Shown here: positions 14,257 through 31,304 of the stretch, one piece after another
Position numbering within the stretch: position 1 is the first letter of the stretch
Layout: every line of letters starts with the position of its first letter
From: Sphingobacteriales bacterium
GTDB lineage: Bacteria > Bacteroidota > Bacteroidia > AKYH767-A > OLB10
NCBI GenBank assembly: GCA_021299095.1
Contig: JAJTFW010000002.1
Coordinates: 202,133-236,154 of the forward strand
Direction: 5' to 3'
Length of the DNA: 34,022 bases
Program-made: the position numbers and the translations under genes
The notes under the pieces: generated by a model
What the model saw: only the letters and a program-made list of their open reading frames with translations
Databases searched by the model: none
What the model was told of the DNA's origin: nothing

Positions 14257-14286
14257 TTGCACATAGCCTTGTGTTTTGTATTTTTC
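14257..14286 (+). promoter_or_regulatory. Putative promoter of the cytochrome gene
   Basis: TTG (14257-14259), a 19-base spacer, and TATTTTTC (14279-14286) match the Bacteroidota layout TTG-N19-TAnnTTTG with the last base changed. The predicted start of transcription is close to 14293, just before the ATG at 14301. Confidence 0.45.
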
Positions 14287-14300
14287 GGATTAGGGTATCC

Positions 14301-16247
14301 ATGAAAAAGTCTATTTCGGTCCTTACCGTGCTCGTTGCCTGCGTGTTGTTGTTACGCAGTGGGGGCGTGCTTGTATCCAAAGAAGGGTATCATTCTCCCG
14401 AGGACCTGCGGTTTTTCCAGGCACATTTTCGTCCACCCCTCGACTCAGGCGAGTATTTCTCACTGCCACAGAACTGCAAAGGATGCCACGGCTACGACTC
14501 GCTGGGACTAGCGAACATTGATGGTTCGGGTATGGATGTGAACCTGTACGACGATTGGGAAACCTCCATGATGGGACTTTCGGCGTATGACCCACTCTGG
14601 AGAGCGAAAGTCAGTCACGAAATTCTGGTGAATCCGACCCACGCGGATGAACTACAAACCTTGTGCACTTCGTGTCATGCACCGCTTGGGCATTACGATG
14701 CATTCTACAAAGGACAGCCCCATTACACCCTGGCCGATCTTCAAACTGACTCGTTGGGCCAATCTGGAGTTTCCTGCCACAGTTGCCATGGCATCAAAGA
14801 TTCAAGCAGCCTGGGCAGCTTGTTCACAGGCCTGATTCCTTACGATACAAACCGTATGGTTTACGGGCCATTCCCGGCTCCGCTAACCGGTCCAATGCAA
14901 TTGTATGTGGGTCTCACTCCAGCGCTTGGTCTTCATTTGAGTGAAAGCAGAGCCTGCTCCCCATGCCACACATTAATCACGCAAACTGCGGACTTAAACG
15001 GAAATGCCACCGGCACTACTTACGTTGAACAAGCCACTTACCACGAATATCTCAATTCCGCCTACCCAAACATCCTGCAGCAGAGTTGCCAAAGCTGCCA
15101 CATGCCGGAGATTGAAGATGCCGTGAAAATCGCCAACGGTTATACGGCTATTCCCGGACGCACTCCTTTCAACCTGCACAGCTTTGCGGGAGCGAATCAA
15201 TTTATGGTGCAATTGATCAAACAAAACAAGAGTCGCTTGGGCGTTGATGCACCGGACCGCAATTTCGACTCGACGCTTGCGGCCATCACGCGCATGCTAA
15301 AGGAACAAACCCTTGATCTCTCAGCTCAATACGACACATCGGCCTCAACGGCTGATACCGCTTTCATTCGGGTCAAGCTAACCAACAAGGCAGGTCATAA
15401 GTTTCCAAGTGGATATCCGGCCCGTCGTGCCGTATTGCAACTGATCGCCATCAAACAAAACGGCGACACGCTCTTTTCATCCGGTCTCTTTGACAGCACC
15501 TTTGAAACCACCACTGCACCTCCCGGTTCGTTCGAACCCCATTACGAAATCATCAACAGCTCATCCCAAACCCAGATCTATGAGCAGATCATGGGGGACG
15601 TGAACGGTGACCGGACCACAGTCCTTGAGCGTGCTGCTAGTTCATTAAAAGACAACCGGCTGCCACCCCTGGGTTTCACGACCCTGCATCCTGTTTATGA
15701 CACCTGCGCCATTGCAGGTAACGCTGCGGTAGATCCGGACTTTAACCGCGACGGCTCGCTTGAAGGAACCGGTAGCGACCATGTCCAATATCACATCCCG
15801 CTCAATGGTTATCCCGGGGCGCTGCAAGTGATTGCAAGGGTTTATTACCAAGCGGTACCACCCTCGTGGCTTTCCGAAATGAGGGGATACAGCTCAGCCG
15901 AAATAGACACTTTTTTGAACATGTATGATCAGTCAGACCGGACACCCTTTCTGATTGCCAGTGATTCCGTTCAGACGCCAGCCATCACCACCGGAGTCGC
16001 TCAAAACCTGATATTGAGCGACTTACACGTATGGCCCAACCCCACATCAGATGGCCAGATAACCCTAACCGGACTATACCGCGAAGCCGGGATTGTAGTC
16101 TATGATGCCGGGGGACGACGCGTGTTTATAGAGGAGCGCCAGGCCGGCAGCCGCCGTGTCATTCTGCTACCCGAATCCAAAGGTATTTATTACCTTGTGG
16201 CCTCTCTTGGCAATCAGCGTATACTACGCAAGATTGTCAGATATTGA
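14301..16247 (+). CDS. Exported five-haem cytochrome c with T9SS type A sorting domain
   Basis: From the ATG at 14301 the protein has 648 residues. A signal peptide (MKKS, then a hydrophobic core to about residue 20) is followed by five haem-binding CxxCH motifs: CKGCH (59), CTSCH (122), CHSCH (159), CSPCH (219) and CQSCH (263). The region from about 345 to 540, with NKAGHKFPSGYPARRA, is a beta-rich domain often found after the haem domain in related cytochromes. The last 80 residues contain VWPNPTSDGQITLTG and end KGIYYLVASLGNQRILRKIV, a T9SS type A sorting signal, so the protein should cross the outer membrane and be released or anchored at the surface. It may carry electrons or be a haem enzyme; the substrate is unknown. 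It shares a 30-base junction with the next secreted gene. Confidence 0.88.
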   Translation: MKKSISVLTVLVACVLLLRSGGVLVSKEGYHSPEDLRFFQAHFRPPLDSGEYFSLPQNCKGCHGYDSLGLANIDGSGMDVNLYDDWETSMMGLSAYDPLWRAKVSHEILVNPTHADELQTLCTSCHAPLGHYDAFYKGQPHYTLADLQTDSLGQSGVSCHSCHGIKDSSSLGSLFTGLIPYDTNRMVYGPFPAPLTGPMQLYVGLTPALGLHLSESRACSPCHTLITQTADLNGNATGTTYVEQATYHEYLNSAYPNILQQSCQSCHMPEIEDAVKIANGYTAIPGRTPFNLHSFAGANQFMVQLIKQNKSRLGVDAPDRNFDSTLAAITRMLKEQTLDLSAQYDTSASTADTAFIRVKLTNKAGHKFPSGYPARRAVLQLIAIKQNGDTLFSSGLFDSTFETTTAPPGSFEPHYEIINSSSQTQIYEQIMGDVNGDRTTVLERAASSLKDNRLPPLGFTTLHPVYDTCAIAGNAAVDPDFNRDGSLEGTGSDHVQYHIPLNGYPGALQVIARVYYQAVPPSWLSEMRGYSSAEIDTFLNMYDQSDRTPFLIASDSVQTPAITTGVAQNLILSDLHVWPNPTSDGQITLTGLYREAGIVVYDAGGRRVFIEERQAGSRRVILLPESKGIYYLVASLGNQRILRKIVRY

Positions 16248-16277
16248 CCGACACAACCTCATCTAAACCATACTTGC

Positions 16278-19139
16278 ATGTTAACACCACGCCTCACAGT
16301 GGCCATGGGCTTCTTGCTGTTAATCGCCAGCACGACTCAGGCTCAGTTCCGTTTCACGAACACCAACTCAAAGCTCATCAATCCGGCTTTCCACAGCGGC
16401 TGCCCGATGACAGTTGCCGACTGGAACAACGATGGATTGGATGATATCATTCGTCTGGATCAAGGCCGGAATGCAAGTATCGAAGTCCAGCGAACGGATA
16501 ACACATTTCAAACCATCACCATCGGTAGTTTCTCGACCAGCAATGGATGGGCTTGGGGTATGGCTGTGGCAGACCTGGATAAAAACGGATTCCTCGACAT
16601 CATCGCTGGAGGCAGCAGCAGTGCGCTTCGCATCTTTATGACAGGACCGTCGGGTGTGTTGGGTACCATGGTCAGTATTCCAAACACGGGCTTTTTTGTT
16701 CAGAACCTAACGTGTGGAGACATCAACAACGATGGATGGATTGACCTTTTTGCCTGTGATGATAATGCCGAGAGTCATGTTTTTCTGAATAATGGTGCGG
16801 GCACGTTGGTGGAGTCAACCACAACAATCAATTTTGATGTCACAAGCACCGATGACTCTGGAAATTACGGGAGCACATGGACTGACTTCGATAACGATGG
16901 AGATCTTGATCTCCACATTGCAAAATGCCGGCAGGGTGTAAACAGCCCGACTGACGGTCGCAGAATCAACGTTATGTTTGTCAACAATGGCAACGGAACA
17001 TTTACCGAGAATGCAGCTGCCTACGGTTTGAATATCGGCTGGCAGTCCTGGACTGCTTCATTTGGTGATATCGACAATGACGGCGACCTCGACCTTTTGG
17101 TAACCAATCATGATTACCAAAGTCAAATCCTCGAAAACGATGGTACAGGCCACTATACGGATATCACTGCATCCACAGGATTCAACATCACTGACATCAC
17201 TCCAATTCAGAGCGTGATGGAAGACTTCGACAACGATGGATTCATTGATTTGTTGATTGCCGGTTCCGACCACCGAATCTACAGGAACAACGGAAACAAA
17301 ACCTTCACGCGTATCGAAGGAATGTTCAATTCAAACGAAATGGAATCATTTGCAATAGGTGATTTGAACCATGATGGGAAAATGGACATCTACGGCGGAT
17401 ATGCGAACATATACACCAACCCCTCCACTGTTGATGATGTGATCTGGATGAATACTGTGTCCAACAACAATCATTTTGTCAACCTTGACCTTGAAGGCAC
17501 AGTAAGCAACAAAGATGCTATTGGAGCACGCGCATTGGTTTATGGTGCATGGGGTGTACAAGTTCGCGAGGTCCGGTCCGGTGAAAGCTACGGAACCGTA
17601 AACAGCTTCATCCTGCACTTCGGTCTTGGTCAGAATAATTATATTGACTCAATCGTTGTACAATTCCCAAGCGGCATCACGCAAACGCTAGTAAGTCCTC
17701 CTGTCGACCAGTTCATCCGGATCATCGAGAGTGACTGCGTATCACCCAATGCCTTCATCAGTTACTCCAACTTGGCTCCTTACATCTGTACTGGCGCAAC
17801 AGAAACCCTAAGCGCACCAACTGGCTTAAACTACCTGTGGAATACAACAGAAACGACTGAATCGATTACCATTCAGGCTGGTGGAGAGTACAACGCCCTT
17901 GTTTCACAAACCGGCAACAATTGCAGCACACTCACGCCTACTGTTGTCGTTCAACAAGACCCTGATCAAACACCCAGTATTTCTACTGTGGGCGATCTTG
18001 AATTCTGCGACGGAGGTTCAGTTCAACTGAACGCAAGCGCGGATGGTAACGTTTCCTTCGCCTGGAGCAATGGAGCATCCGGAGCCAGCACCTCGATTGG
18101 CCTAAGCGGACAATATACCGTAACCGCCCTTGGCTATTGTAGCACATTTACATCTTCACCGGTGACTGTTACCAGCCATGTGATACCTGACCCAATCACA
18201 ACACCATTCGTTGTGCTTCAATCACCCGGATCGGCCACGCTTACTGCATCGGGAAGTATTTTAAACTGGTATGACGCCGCTACATCTACAACACCGCTGT
18301 ATACCGGATCATCCTTCACAACGCCCTTCATTGCATCTAGCGAGGATTTCTGGGTCGAAAACAGTGAAAACTACAACGGTGGGCTTTACGCAACCGGCCA
18401 ACCTTACCACGGTGGAAGCAGCCAGTACAGCGGAACCAACTCACTGAATGCCTATACGACGTTTAACGTTGCCAAGCCCTGCGTTTTACGCAGTGTTAAG
18501 GTGTACACAGACCGCGCAGGCACGCGCCGATTCACCTTGCGGGACAGCCAAGGTAATCTCCTGCAATTTGTCGATGTACTTGTAAGCCCTGACACCCAAG
18601 TTGTAAATCTCAATTTCACATTGAGCCCAGGTAACGGCTACCGCCTCGGGACATTGGACAGTATGAACCTGCTCATTGCCAATTGGAATAATGCCGGTCC
18701 ACGCTTCAGAAGGACATCCAACAACAACGTTCCCCTGCCCTATCCCTATGTGGTCAATAATGGACTTAGCATCACAGGAAACAGCAGTGGAACCTCATTC
18801 TATTTCTACTACTACGACTGGAATGTGGATGTTATCGGATTGAATTGCTACAGTCAGCGTCTGCAGGTAATTGCCAGTGTTGCCACAGGCGTGTCACAAG
18901 TAACAGAAAACCGACTGATCGTATATCCAAACCCTGCACACGACCAAGTGAATGTTCTCAATCCGTTCAACGATGATGCAATTGTCCGCGTAAGTGATGC
19001 CTCCGGCCGCGTTCTTGACCAGAAAAACATCGCCACGGGAGCAGGAACGATTGATGTTAGTCAATATTCAAAGGGGACGTATTTCATTGAAATCCGTCAG
19101 GGCGAAAACCTGATGCACAACAAAATCGTCGTTAACTAA
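16278..19139 (+). CDS. Secreted CRTAC1-like protein: VCBS/FG-GAP repeats, ASPIC/UnbV domain, T9SS type A
   Basis: The 953-residue protein begins with a signal peptide (MLTPRLTVAMGFLLLIAS, cleavage near AQA-QF). Seven repeats start with a calcium-loop motif of the D-x-D/N-x-D/N-G type at about residues 48, 99, 148, 203, 264, 316 and 362, for example DFDNDGDLDL, so the N-terminal half should fold as an integrin-type beta-propeller. An ASPIC/UnbV domain follows (about 395-485, GARALVYGAWGVQVREV). Residues 490-620 resemble two Ig-like or PKD-type modules, 620-870 is beta-rich without a family I know, and the end (about 878-953, YPNPAHDQVNV) is a T9SS type A sorting domain. It probably acts at the cell surface in adhesion or binding. 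It lies 30 bases after the cytochrome gene and is probably cotranscribed. Confidence 0.9.
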   Translation: MLTPRLTVAMGFLLLIASTTQAQFRFTNTNSKLINPAFHSGCPMTVADWNNDGLDDIIRLDQGRNASIEVQRTDNTFQTITIGSFSTSNGWAWGMAVADLDKNGFLDIIAGGSSSALRIFMTGPSGVLGTMVSIPNTGFFVQNLTCGDINNDGWIDLFACDDNAESHVFLNNGAGTLVESTTTINFDVTSTDDSGNYGSTWTDFDNDGDLDLHIAKCRQGVNSPTDGRRINVMFVNNGNGTFTENAAAYGLNIGWQSWTASFGDIDNDGDLDLLVTNHDYQSQILENDGTGHYTDITASTGFNITDITPIQSVMEDFDNDGFIDLLIAGSDHRIYRNNGNKTFTRIEGMFNSNEMESFAIGDLNHDGKMDIYGGYANIYTNPSTVDDVIWMNTVSNNNHFVNLDLEGTVSNKDAIGARALVYGAWGVQVREVRSGESYGTVNSFILHFGLGQNNYIDSIVVQFPSGITQTLVSPPVDQFIRIIESDCVSPNAFISYSNLAPYICTGATETLSAPTGLNYLWNTTETTESITIQAGGEYNALVSQTGNNCSTLTPTVVVQQDPDQTPSISTVGDLEFCDGGSVQLNASADGNVSFAWSNGASGASTSIGLSGQYTVTALGYCSTFTSSPVTVTSHVIPDPITTPFVVLQSPGSATLTASGSILNWYDAATSTTPLYTGSSFTTPFIASSEDFWVENSENYNGGLYATGQPYHGGSSQYSGTNSLNAYTTFNVAKPCVLRSVKVYTDRAGTRRFTLRDSQGNLLQFVDVLVSPDTQVVNLNFTLSPGNGYRLGTLDSMNLLIANWNNAGPRFRRTSNNNVPLPYPYVVNNGLSITGNSSGTSFYFYYYDWNVDVIGLNCYSQRLQVIASVATGVSQVTENRLIVYPNPAHDQVNVLNPFNDDAIVRVSDASGRVLDQKNIATGAGTIDVSQYSKGTYFIEIRQGENLMHNKIVVN

Positions 19140-27537: not shown

Positions 27538-30180
27538 TTAGGGAGCGCTTGTGCGGGTCAGATGTACGAATCCGTTCAACACGCGTGGAGCCTGCTGTAC
27601 ACTTGGATTTGTTGGATCGGGTGTTTCAAACACCTCGCAGATATAGAAGTAAACACCTTCGGGACACTCCACCCCTGCGTTGTTTCGCGTCCCATCCCAA
27701 CCGATGAATGGATCTTCCGTTTTAAAAACCTGATCACCCCATCGGTTGAAGATGCGCATGTCCACTCTAACGATGTCGCGGTACGGAAGAAGCGGATGAT
27801 ACACATCGTTCACCTGGTTGTTGTCGGGAGTGAAAATATTGGGCAACTCGTCCTCGGGGCAAGGACCGGTGCAAAATGGCTGACCGAGTTCTCCTCTGTT
27901 TCCATTGGTATCGACCGCCAACACGGAATAACACCCTGCAATCGACCCCGTTCCGAGGTAGGTCACAGATGTTGCAGGAGCGTTTATCGTTGTCAGCAAG
28001 ACCGGCGAAGCGCCGCTTACAGGTGTAAAATACAACTCGACAATTCCGATATCCGCTCCACAAGAGTCATTGGAAAACCAGGAGAATTCGATTTGGAGTG
28101 CTTCGCAATTCGCCACACCTGAAAGCGCTGGAGGACATGGAGCCTCGTTGTCGACAGGAGTAGCACAAACCTGCTGAGATCGATTGAGGATCGGATTCAC
28201 CAGGCCGGTATCCTGATAGGCACCCACACTTTGGATATAATAGCAATACAGATTACCATTCACCAACGTATCGTCAGTATAGGTCAGGTCGGCCGTGCTA
28301 TCGATCAGCGTAAAAGGACCGGAGCCATTGTTTCGGTAAATACGGAAATAATCGTTGGTCCAAGGCACCTCGCTTGTCCATTGCAGGCGGTTCTTCCTGT
28401 CGCCGGGATTGATGTTTAAAAAAACCGTTGATCCGGCGCGGGTGTTTCCGGCAAGAAATACGTTTCCAGGTGTATCATTCCACAACTGAACGCGATACGC
28501 TTGATCACTTCCGGCGGTATTCAACCCGGTTTCGGTGTGGAGCGTGTCATTCAGGTCGGTGTAGGTAACAACATCCGTAAAATTCCCGGGGGAGGTTTCA
28601 CGTTGAAGAACGTAACGATACGGTCCAGGCGTTTGAACAGGATCAATCTGAGTCGGCTTCGACCAAGCGATATTGACAGCGCCATTCAAGGCATCCGTCA
28701 CCTCTACATCCGCATTGGTCAATACCGGTAAATCCCGAATCAACCGACCACAGAATTCAACAGATGCATAACTCTCCGCTCCATCGGGGTAGAATGCGGC
28801 AACCATGTAACAATACTCCACAGCGGGGGCTAATCCAGCGCCGTTATCGTTGTCGATGTATGAGGTCGAGGTCAAACCATTGAGCGTGGCAATTCGCACA
28901 TAGCCGGTATATGCAGGCACACCGGTTTCGCAATCACCGGGATTGAAACCAAAGACCGAAATACGACGGTAAATATGATATCCTACAGCCTCGGCACAAC
29001 TACTTTGATCCCAACTGAGCTGAAGCGCGTTTCCCGATGGATTCGCTTGTGGATTCAAAGGGGCTGGCCCAACGACAGTGATGGAAACAGACTCCAAATC
29101 GACTAATGGTATCTGTGCGTTATTGTCTTCGGCTTTAAACACCACGGTGTAGGGAGATCGGCGCACATGAGCACAAACTGTGCTCCACTGGAAATCGCCT
29201 GTAGCTGAACCCTGGGAGGGTACCGAGACGAAAACTGCTGGATTTTGCGAAAGCGTAAAGGGCCCTCCGGTGGCAGTTAGTGTAACGGTCTCCGATGCAT
29301 TGTTGTCGGATGCACTGACTGAAAATGCAAGCACGGAACCGGCCAACACACAGGTGTCCGAAACCGCAGTGATTACAGGCGGATCATTCAAGGGCGGATA
29401 GATGGTGATCTGCATATCGCGGGTCACGAAACCTATATTTAGCAGACCGACACCGGGTATGTTTCTCCACTCCCGAATAATCATAGCCACATTGTATTCG
29501 CCAACAAGCTGAGGAGAGTCCCAAACGAGATCACCTGTGACGGAATCGAGCGTAAACGAAACACTCGCTGATGGATATACGAAGCCCGGAACAGGCTGGC
29601 CACCGAACCCCTTGCATTCTGTCAATTCGTAGGATAGACTGTCGCCATCGGGATCAAAAGCATTCGGGTTGTGAATAAACAAGCGATTTACTGCACCATT
29701 ATCAATCGGAGGCTGCAAGAGCTGCGGAGAGGAATTGGTCAGAAATGCAGGGGAAATGATTAACTGGGTCTCTACATAAAACGGAATATTGACCGAACCC
29801 GGAATATTGATCACATTCGCGTTCCGGTTCTCATCGAGAAAATACATGGTAAAACTCCCCGGCCCTGGATATACATGGGTGGCCACGTACGTATTTTTCT
29901 GAACATCGGGACCAACGCCAAACACGATTCCTGATCTTGGAACTGTATCCCGTGTACCATCACCCCACCAAAATTCAAGTTCAGGCCGGTCGGCGGGGCT
30001 TGATGTTTTGGTGTACGTAACAATCGTAGCCCTGTAAGTATACGTGCCGAGTTTCTCATAGGTGATTTCACCGGCGCGGTTGTGGGTTGCAGCAACGAAC
30101 CCTGTCGAAAGCACCATCAAGGCCAGGACCGCGTAGCAGAACTTGGATAAAAAATCGCTGATAATACTGTTCGATTTCAT
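27538..30180 (-). CDS. Large secreted surface protein with T9SS type B (CHU_C) domain
   Basis: From the ATG at 30180 the protein has 880 residues. A signal peptide (KFCYAVLALMVLSTGFVAA, cleaved near residue 31) leads into THNRAGEITYEKLGTYTY, an opening common to many Bacteroidota surface proteins, with a following WGDGT segment. The middle holds cadherin/PKD-like modules (about 180-370) and fibronectin type III-like repeats (about 375-780; LQLSWDQSSCAEAVGYHIYR). The end, about 795-880, is a gliding-associated CHU_C domain: PNIFTPDNNQVNDVY, then FNRWGDQVF and GWDGT, a T9SS type B signal. It probably is exported to the surface, where it may act in adhesion. Its ATG overlaps the mqnC stop (TGATG), so the two are translationally coupled, and kdsB follows after five bases. 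Confidence 0.9.
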   Translation of the reverse strand: MKSNSIISDFLSKFCYAVLALMVLSTGFVAATHNRAGEITYEKLGTYTYRATIVTYTKTSSPADRPELEFWWGDGTRDTVPRSGIVFGVGPDVQKNTYVATHVYPGPGSFTMYFLDENRNANVINIPGSVNIPFYVETQLIISPAFLTNSSPQLLQPPIDNGAVNRLFIHNPNAFDPDGDSLSYELTECKGFGGQPVPGFVYPSASVSFTLDSVTGDLVWDSPQLVGEYNVAMIIREWRNIPGVGLLNIGFVTRDMQITIYPPLNDPPVITAVSDTCVLAGSVLAFSVSASDNNASETVTLTATGGPFTLSQNPAVFVSVPSQGSATGDFQWSTVCAHVRRSPYTVVFKAEDNNAQIPLVDLESVSITVVGPAPLNPQANPSGNALQLSWDQSSCAEAVGYHIYRRISVFGFNPGDCETGVPAYTGYVRIATLNGLTSTSYIDNDNGAGLAPAVEYCYMVAAFYPDGAESYASVEFCGRLIRDLPVLTNADVEVTDALNGAVNIAWSKPTQIDPVQTPGPYRYVLQRETSPGNFTDVVTYTDLNDTLHTETGLNTAGSDQAYRVQLWNDTPGNVFLAGNTRAGSTVFLNINPGDRKNRLQWTSEVPWTNDYFRIYRNNGSGPFTLIDSTADLTYTDDTLVNGNLYCYYIQSVGAYQDTGLVNPILNRSQQVCATPVDNEAPCPPALSGVANCEALQIEFSWFSNDSCGADIGIVELYFTPVSGASPVLLTTINAPATSVTYLGTGSIAGCYSVLAVDTNGNRGELGQPFCTGPCPEDELPNIFTPDNNQVNDVYHPLLPYRDIVRVDMRIFNRWGDQVFKTEDPFIGWDGTRNNAGVECPEGVYFYICEVFETPDPTNPSVQQAPRVLNGFVHLTRTSAP

Positions 30181-31304
30181 CAATAGGTGATTACCTGTTC
30201 TTCCATCTGGGCAGGTTGTTCCCTGTACTCGTATTGTTGATTCCGCAGACGCGGCTCAAAGCCGGCTTCCTGAATCGCTTCCTGGATACCACGACTGGTG
30301 AACCTGTGCGGAGCACCCGCAGCAGAAACCACATTTTCCTCAATCATAATCGATCCGAAATCATTCGCACCTGCGTGCAAACAAACCTGAGCAACCTGCT
30401 TTCCAACCGTCAGCCAGGAGGCCTGGATGTTTTCAATGTTTGGCAGCATGATCCTACTCAGTGCAATCATCCGGATGTATTCTTCGGAGGTGACCTCATT
30501 CCGGATCCCTTTCACCCTCCTGAGCAAGGTCCCTTCGTCCTGGAACGGCCAGGGAATGAAGGCGACGAAGCCTTTGACACCGTCCGGCTTTTCGGACTGC
30601 ACTGTTCGCAACCAAACCAAATGCTCAAACCGCTCTTGCAAGGTTTCGATATGACCGAACATCATGGTTGCAGAAGTTGTGATACCGAGTTGATGCGCAG
30701 CGCGCATAACATCCAGCCACTCTCCTCCGCTGCATTTACCTTTTGAAATCATTCGCCTAACGCGATCGTGCAAAATTTCGGCGCCTGCACCGGGCAGTGA
30801 ATCAAGGCCAGCAGCGACGAGCTCACGCAAGACCTCGGTATGGCTCAACTTCTCAAGCTTGGCGATGTGCGCGATTTCCGGAGGTCCGAGTGCGTGCAGC
30901 TTCAACCGGGGATACATTTCCTTCAGCCGGCTGAAAAGCTTGGTGTAGTATGCAAGTCCCAAGTCCGGATGATGGCCACCCTGAAGCAACAACTGCTCAC
31001 CTCCATACCGGAAGGTTTCATCGATCTTTTGCCTGTACTGCTCTTCAGAAGTGATATAGGCTTCGCCGTGACCGGGCACCCGGTAAAAATTGCAAAATTT
31101 ACAGTTGGCAATACAAACATTCGTGGTATTCACATTGCGATCGATGATCCAGGTGACCACCGGTTCGGGTTTCACCTCAAACCGCAGTCGATCGGCCACA
31201 TGCATCAGCGCCGAGGTAGGCGCATGACGAAAAAGCCAAACACCCTCTTCAGCGCTAAGGAATTCCCTGTTGAGGGCTCGTTCTAGTAGGGATTCGTTGT
31301 GCAT
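30180..31304 (-). CDS. mqnC: Cyclic dehypoxanthinyl futalosine synthase MqnC
   Basis: From the ATG at 31304 the protein has 374 residues. The radical SAM cluster motif is CIANCKFC (64-71, Cys64, Cys68 and Cys71), followed by NFYRVPG, LLLQGGHHPDLGL, LHALGPPEI and SLPGAGAEIL, and finally GANDFGSIMIEENVVSAAG, which together are diagnostic of MqnC. It cyclises dehypoxanthine futalosine in the alternative menaquinone pathway. An in-frame TTG at 31334 would add 10 residues; the ATG is preferred. A TAATTTTG box at 31410-31417 lies about 105 bases upstream. Its last base overlaps the next ATG (TGATG). The other futalosine genes (mqnA, B, D) are not in the window. Confidence 0.94.
   Translation of the reverse strand: MHNESLLERALNREFLSAEEGVWLFRHAPTSALMHVADRLRFEVKPEPVVTWIIDRNVNTTNVCIANCKFCNFYRVPGHGEAYITSEEQYRQKIDETFRYGGEQLLLQGGHHPDLGLAYYTKLFSRLKEMYPRLKLHALGPPEIAHIAKLEKLSHTEVLRELVAAGLDSLPGAGAEILHDRVRRMISKGKCSGGEWLDVMRAAHQLGITTSATMMFGHIETLQERFEHLVWLRTVQSEKPDGVKGFVAFIPWPFQDEGTLLRRVKGIRNEVTSEEYIRMIALSRIMLPNIENIQASWLTVGKQVAQVCLHAGANDFGSIMIEENVVSAAGAPHRFTSRGIQEAIQEAGFEPRLRNQQYEYREQPAQMEEQVITY

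Follow-up and report, generated by a model that had tools for sequence, protein, structure and literature searches.

The window (the whole stretch of 34,022 nucleotides of DNA that was analysed) carries two adjacent genes that probably place a pentahaem cytochrome and a propeller-shaped partner protein on the exterior of the cell. The best explanation, to which we give a probability only a little above even, is that the two genes are transcribed as a single unit and produce a redox module that is exported by the T9SS, and that functions in electron transfer and not in catalysis. The location of the proteins and their pairing are well supported; extracellular electron transfer is inferred.

The two genes and their products

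The features of the locus are itemized in Table 1. The two open reading frames lie where an earlier note on this DNA had put them, on the same strand and with 30 bases between them, a gap that suggests co-transcription of cytochrome and partner. The cytochrome gene has an alternative GTG start upstream, at 14271. The region has no more sigma-70 promoters or terminators than shuffled sequence does. The neighbours in the window are ordinary, with pyruvate kinase and M42 peptidase genes upstream and a gene for a MacB-like permease downstream on the opposite strand.

The cytochrome reading frame contains exactly five CxxCH motifs, as claimed previously. Signal peptides had been proposed for both proteins. 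By eye that of the partner is clear and that of the cytochrome is less clean, with good n and h regions and no obvious AxA. A lipoprotein anchor was considered for the cytochrome (LVAC, residues 11–14) and rejected; Cys14 is retained in just 29% of homologues, and thus the protein is probably not a lipoprotein.

In the partner the profile matches to FG-GAP, UnbV_ASPIC, Ig_7 and Por_Secre_tail all exceed their cut-offs, the second of these bearing out the ASPIC/UnbV domain of the earlier note. The seven calcium-loop repeats that it described are also present, with exact D-x-[DN]-x-[DN]-G motifs at residues 48, 99, 148, 203, 264, 316 and 362, and the FG-GAP repeats presumably fold as a seven-bladed propeller. 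By sequence the nearest solved relative is CRTAC1 (cartilage acidic protein 1, PDB 9etn), which shares the arrangement of FG-GAP propeller followed by ASPIC/UnbV. The partner differs from CRTAC1 in its additional Ig-like and family-less beta modules, its T9SS tail and its linkage to one cytochrome. The beta modules had been called unfamiliar; they are at least partly Ig-like, and residues roughly 700–875 match no family in the profile search.

Table 1. Coordinates of the features of the cytochrome–partner locus, and of two features at loci of relatives. Positions are those of the window unless a locus is named.
Feature	Position	Strand	Basis or setting
Pentahaem cytochrome gene, 648 aa	14301..16247	+	sequence, family profiles, homologues
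Putative signal peptide of cytochrome, residues 1–26, cleavage site indistinct	14301..14378	+	sequence, by eye
Haem motif 1 CKGCH, residues 59–63	14475..14489	+	homologue alignment
Haem motif 2 CTSCH, residues 122–126	14664..14678	+	homologue alignment
Haem motif 3 CHSCH, residues 159–163	14775..14789	+	homologue alignment
Haem motif 4 CSPCH, residues 219–223	14955..14969	+	homologue alignment
Haem motif 5 CQSCH, residues 263–267	15087..15101	+	homologue alignment
Beta-sandwich (Ig-like) domain of cytochrome, residues ~338–560	15312..15980	+	predicted model, profile search
T9SS type A sorting domain of cytochrome, residues 577–646	16029..16238	+	TIGR04183, predicted model
CRTAC1-like partner gene, 953 aa	16278..19139	+	sequence, family profiles, PDB match
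Signal peptide of partner, residues 1–22 (...TQA|QF)	16278..16343	+	sequence, by eye
Seven FG-GAP repeats with calcium-type loops, residues 48–372	16419..17393	+	profiles, motif search, PDB 9etn CRTAC1
ASPIC/UnbV domain of partner, residues 414–480	17517..17717	+	family profile
Ig-like domain Ig_7 of partner, residues 651–698	18228..18371	+	family profile
T9SS type A sorting domain of partner, residues 882–953	18921..19136	+	family profiles
Monohaem cytochrome–barrel fusions	L096–L098, L100–L105, L111, e.g. L100:5069-6229		directly upstream of tail-less pentahaem cytochrome
Distant pentahaem relative (Nitratiruptor plasmid)	L141:4752-8246		between imelysin and FTR1 permease genes

Fold family and candidate haem ligands of the cytochrome

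An AlphaFold model of the cytochrome was calculated from 26 sequences (mean pLDDT 70.8). The tail and most of the beta domain are predicted well, and parts of the haem region (residues 159–222 and 257–296) poorly, with pLDDT of 35–50. Among PDB entries Foldseek ranks c552, a pentahaem cytochrome from Thermochromatium tepidum, first (5ze8; E = 7.3e-12), and alignment with VIA-align gives Z = 18.6 over 334 residues with an rmsd of 3.5, the next entry scoring 7.7. Profile searches independently recover 5ze8 together with the selenoprotein cytochrome MccSep, with the common motif H-x-x-P-[ST]-G-x-P. In the window cytochrome this motif lies inside the beta-sandwich as AGHKFPSGYP (containing His366), and it is common to c552 and ExtKL/MccSep. 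The overall fold, in which a haem domain is followed by an Ig-like beta-sandwich, is that of 5ze8 (Chen et al. 2019, as cited in PMC11976967).

A paper on cable bacteria unites ExtKL, Gsu2801 and their relatives in a family of pentahaem cytochromes with an Ig-like domain, similar to c552 (PMC11976967). Taken with the fold and profile matches, this description places the window protein in the c552/ExtKL (PHC) fold family. It is a member of that family with no claim to be ExtKL itself, an identity that was rejected on a score of 37.3 bits, far under the cut-off of 250 for NCBIfam NF040886; 25 of 26 orthologues give a similarly weak match. Like c552 the cytochrome has five haems and, C-terminal to them, a beta-sandwich; unlike c552 it carries a T9SS tail, is paired with a partner and has Met91 in place of a histidine. 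Compared with MccSep, Tyr372 falls at about the position of the selenocysteine, and no cluster resembling extI or extMN is seen at the window locus. Kinship has been suggested between c552/PHC cytochromes and the archaeal nanowire AvECN (PMC11976967). AvECN is tetrahaem and polymerizes, whereas the window cytochrome is pentahaem; AvECN is not among the VIA-align matches listed for the model, which does not exclude a relation.

The five CxxCH motifs are invariant in 28 of 28 close sequences, and also occur in all complete deep homologues. Outside these motifs four further histidines are invariant in the close family; across all 58 sequences compared, His293 and His366 never vary, His414 is present in 52 and His212 is present in 51. 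Of the 52 sequences belonging to the closer groups, 51 retain Met91; histidine occupies its position in c552 and in half of the sequences of the most distant group, and by eye also in ExtKL/MccSep. On the alignment these residues could fill all five axial positions, so that every haem could be six-coordinate, four by bis-His and one by His/Met ligation. A set of haems that may all be six-coordinate favours electron transfer over catalysis.

Probable export and conservation of the pair

The earlier note had assigned T9SS type A domains to both proteins, and this is borne out by Por_Secre_tail in the partner and by TIGR04183 in the cytochrome. The cytochrome tail scores 31.1 bits against this NCBIfam profile (cut-off 23), and 21.4 bits against Pfam PF18962, under its cut-off of 27. 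TIGR04183 matches 26 of the 26 cytochrome orthologues scanned, most deeper homologues in other families are also T9SS-tailed, and the modelled tail matches the C-terminal domain of RgpB (5ag8/7pq4). The source genome (2.5 Mb in 93 contigs, 96% complete) contains an intact SprA (2632 bits) and the PorU sortase (1278 bits), with approximately 100 open reading frames matching Por_Secre_tail. T9SS export of the cytochrome is thus well supported at the level of sequence, by the tail in every orthologue scanned and by the machinery in the genome. Within the window, an 881-residue protein (27538-30183) with a CHU_C T9SS signal domain represents a second kind of T9SS cargo.

The genome also has a CcsA-type gene for cytochrome c haem attachment and assembly, and one haem-copper oxidase gene. 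A multihaem cytochrome with seven motifs, whose C-terminal part may be TPR-like, is encoded elsewhere in the genome (L129:3921-5732, contig C10), on the same contig as CcsA-type haem assembly genes.

It had been considered unusual that a folded, haem-loaded protein should cross the outer membrane. Since the T9SS moves folded proteins through the 36-strand barrel of SprA (PMC9251779), export of the holo-cytochrome is less odd than was claimed. Nevertheless, cytochromes go unmentioned in a review of T9SS effectors (PMC10202324). No combination of T9SS and multihaem cytochrome was found in the open-licence literature searched, which does not prove novelty.

The full-length cytochrome is present in 20 of 61 related genomes, and the partner, searched for independently, is found in all 20. 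Among the other 41 genomes one has just a weaker, partial partner paralogue (residues 14–502). The co-occurrence has a Fisher p of ~3e-15, uncorrected for kinship. The distribution is patchy among members of the same family, and in g5 even of the same genus, indicating that the two genes are gained or lost together. In one strongly supported clade 20 of 21 cytochromes have the partner directly downstream in the same order and strand, with gaps that are mostly 17–63 bases by the called starts; in the exception a collagen-like gene takes the position of the partner, and a partial partner lies on another contig. Many unrelated sets of genes flank the pair (M42 peptidase with MacB, YhdP-like, Crp/Fnr with hemerythrin, ClpB, ClpX, sulfotransferase, histidine kinase and others), and thus it has stayed joined while its surroundings changed. 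The earlier note had let its proposal depend on conservation of the two genes as neighbours in relatives, and they are so conserved; that the pairing is not due to chance is well supported. Comparison of the cytochrome and partner trees gives modest congruence (Mantel r = 0.38, with 103 of 2000 permutations as high, and 11 of 19 splits in common), and co-evolution by this measure was set aside as weak. In the deepest members (G049 and G050) both genes are present and not adjacent. The named carriers of close relatives are uncultured Bacteroidota MAGs, e.g. OLB10 and UBA6661, the relatives coming from MAGs of sludge, lakes and ponds. No spread on viral contigs was found.

Among deeper homologues of the cytochrome some are T9SS-tailed and have no adjoining partner, and others have as neighbour a collagen-like protein or a protein of the ScyD/ScyE family or of BNR/YCF48-like type, the last two being themselves T9SS-tailed. 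The ScyD/ScyE-family (L092:8866-10137) and BNR/YCF48-like (L091:4014-5321) proteins are likely beta-propellers, and may be alternative propeller partners. At another locus (L093:7410-10994) two pentahaem cytochromes are encoded in tandem, one T9SS-tailed and one tail-less, possibly as surface and periplasmic copies side by side. In one relative a gene for an MbnH/MauG-like di-haem enzyme directly follows the cytochrome–partner pair (L119:5378-6412).

The surroundings of the pair in two lineages fit a role in low-oxygen respiration. In one of these (L042, L044, L045 and L046) a Crp/Fnr-type regulator directly precedes the pair and a hemerythrin gene follows it; in L042 the hemerythrin gene is succeeded by one for a CcoI-like copper P-type ATPase, and L049 retains the Crp/Fnr regulator. 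In the other, an early branch (L084), the pair is divergent from genes for a radical SAM protein, a P-type ATPase and a CcoNO fusion. The locus in the window is without Crp/Fnr, hemerythrin, CcoI-like or CcoNO neighbours, and no Fnr-like boxes or Bacteroidota -7 motifs are shared upstream of the cytochrome gene across the homologues.

Proposed electron transfer at the cell surface and alternative functions

In the mechanism that we propose both proteins would be carried into the periplasm by Sec, where haem would be attached to the cytochrome. The folded proteins would then cross SprA by virtue of their C-terminal domains and become anchored at the surface. The propeller/ASPIC partner would bind or position the cytochrome, which would relay electrons between the envelope and something external to the cell, and would not act as a catalyst. 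A scaffolding role for the partner is a guess. Extracellular electron transfer gains weight from the membership of the cytochrome in the PHC/ExtKL/c552 family, in which ExtKL has been implicated in extracellular electron transfer by Geobacter (PMC11976967). The surface redox or electron-transfer module of the earlier note is therefore plausible on the family assignment; it is weakened in that the MtrB/PioB porin (PF11854) has no match in the source genome at its 96% completeness. A barrel-fused monohaem cytochrome was also sought there and is absent, so that neither offers electrons a route across the outer membrane. The haem-copper oxidase indicates that extracellular respiration is not obligatory.

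The proposed module resembles the Mtr/Pcc conduits in having a multihaem cytochrome at the surface, and the match of the window cytochrome to the MtrC domain falls just under the cut-off (29 compared with 30 bits). MtrC and OmcA are exported by the T2SS, an analogous export of folded protein. The window system differs in its probable export by T9SS and in that no MtrB/PioB porin was found.

A different arrangement is seen in one well-supported sister clade (SH-aLRT 100) of pentahaem cytochromes that have no T9SS tail. Of the 11 loci in this clade, 10 carry as the preceding gene a fusion of a monohaem cytochrome c with a probable outer-membrane barrel, and the remaining one (L099) carries a shorter reading frame corresponding to the C-terminal part alone. 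The barrel part comprises ~230 residues rich in long strands, with an aromatic end, DGG[FLI][FLA]EGW, and nine aligned copies of the fusion are 55–64% identical to the first. The predicted model has 11 long strands at low confidence (pLDDT 45.5). Almost all of the top Foldseek matches of the model are to outer-membrane barrels, none reaching E < 0.001, and the fusion matches none of the barrel families searched. It resembles a fused porin–cytochrome in the manner of Cyc2. None of the T9SS-tailed genomes tested had the full-length fusion. With a T9SS tail in one lineage and an upstream cytochrome–barrel in the tail-less other, there would be two ways of wiring one core: it appears that one lineage exports the pentahaem core, and the other pairs it with a cytochrome–barrel. 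A fuller proposal is of an extracellular electron-transfer system specific to Bacteroidota, in which T9SS in place of a porin conduit brings a pentahaem cytochrome of c552/ExtKL type to the surface, where a dedicated calcium-propeller ASPIC protein docks or aligns it, with the sister clade using the fused monohaem cytochrome–barrel with the same core. We advance this tentatively, and consider it a good deal less likely than not to be correct in all its parts.

The two proteins might instead be separate surface cargos, produced from one operon under the same condition without forming a complex, the cytochrome being a redox protein and the propeller an independent adhesin or binding protein. T9SS cargos are certainly abundant, with some 100 tails in the source genome, and the deeper tailed cytochromes that have other neighbours or no adjoining partner would be expected on this basis. 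Yet the two genes are present or absent together (20 of 20 genomes) and adjacent in many genomic locations, a tighter association than shared conditions usually give, and we consider such independence unlikely.

Two further alternatives retain a redox function of another kind. The cytochrome could be a ferric reductase (or ferrous oxidase) at the surface or in the periplasm, serving iron acquisition and not respiration. This draws on a distant relative on a Nitratiruptor plasmid, encoded in an iron-uptake cluster of non-haem ferritin, imelysin, cytochrome and FTR1 permease. That relative is remote, however (26% identity over 49% of the query), and in the Bacteroidota loci examined the pair has no iron-uptake gene as a neighbour, making this role quite improbable. 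The phylum of Nitratiruptor is also not known to have T9SS. Many multihaem cytochromes are enzymes, and the protein could act on a small molecule (a nitrogen or sulfur oxyanion, peroxide or NO) on either side of the outer membrane, induced at low oxygen. The Crp/Fnr regulator and hemerythrin flanking the pair in one lineage agree with this, as does the view that ExtKL-like members are potential catalytic cytochromes in cable bacteria (PMC11976967). Against it, the conserved candidates for axial ligands suffice for all five haems, and the window cytochrome has no match above cut-off to the nitrite-reductase or octahaem tetrathionate-reductase families. The probability of an enzymatic function is low, and if anything a shade lower than that of a role in iron acquisition.

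Returning to the surface electron-transfer module, the cytochrome belongs to a known family, and it is the T9SS tail and the dedicated partner that differ. Extracellular electron transfer is known mainly in Geobacter, Shewanella, archaea and certain Gram-positive bacteria, in which cytochromes reach the surface by other routes. The joint gain and loss of the two genes across relatives suggests an undescribed way of exchanging electrons at the cell surface in this group. The mutually exclusive T9SS tail and fused cytochrome–barrel offer a natural comparison of the ways in which a single cytochrome core is connected to the exterior, and carriage by T9SS of proteins covalently loaded with haem would become directly testable. 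If the proposal is true, a T9SS-exported cytochrome with its dedicated partner would be a candidate surface redox system for uncultured Bacteroidota.
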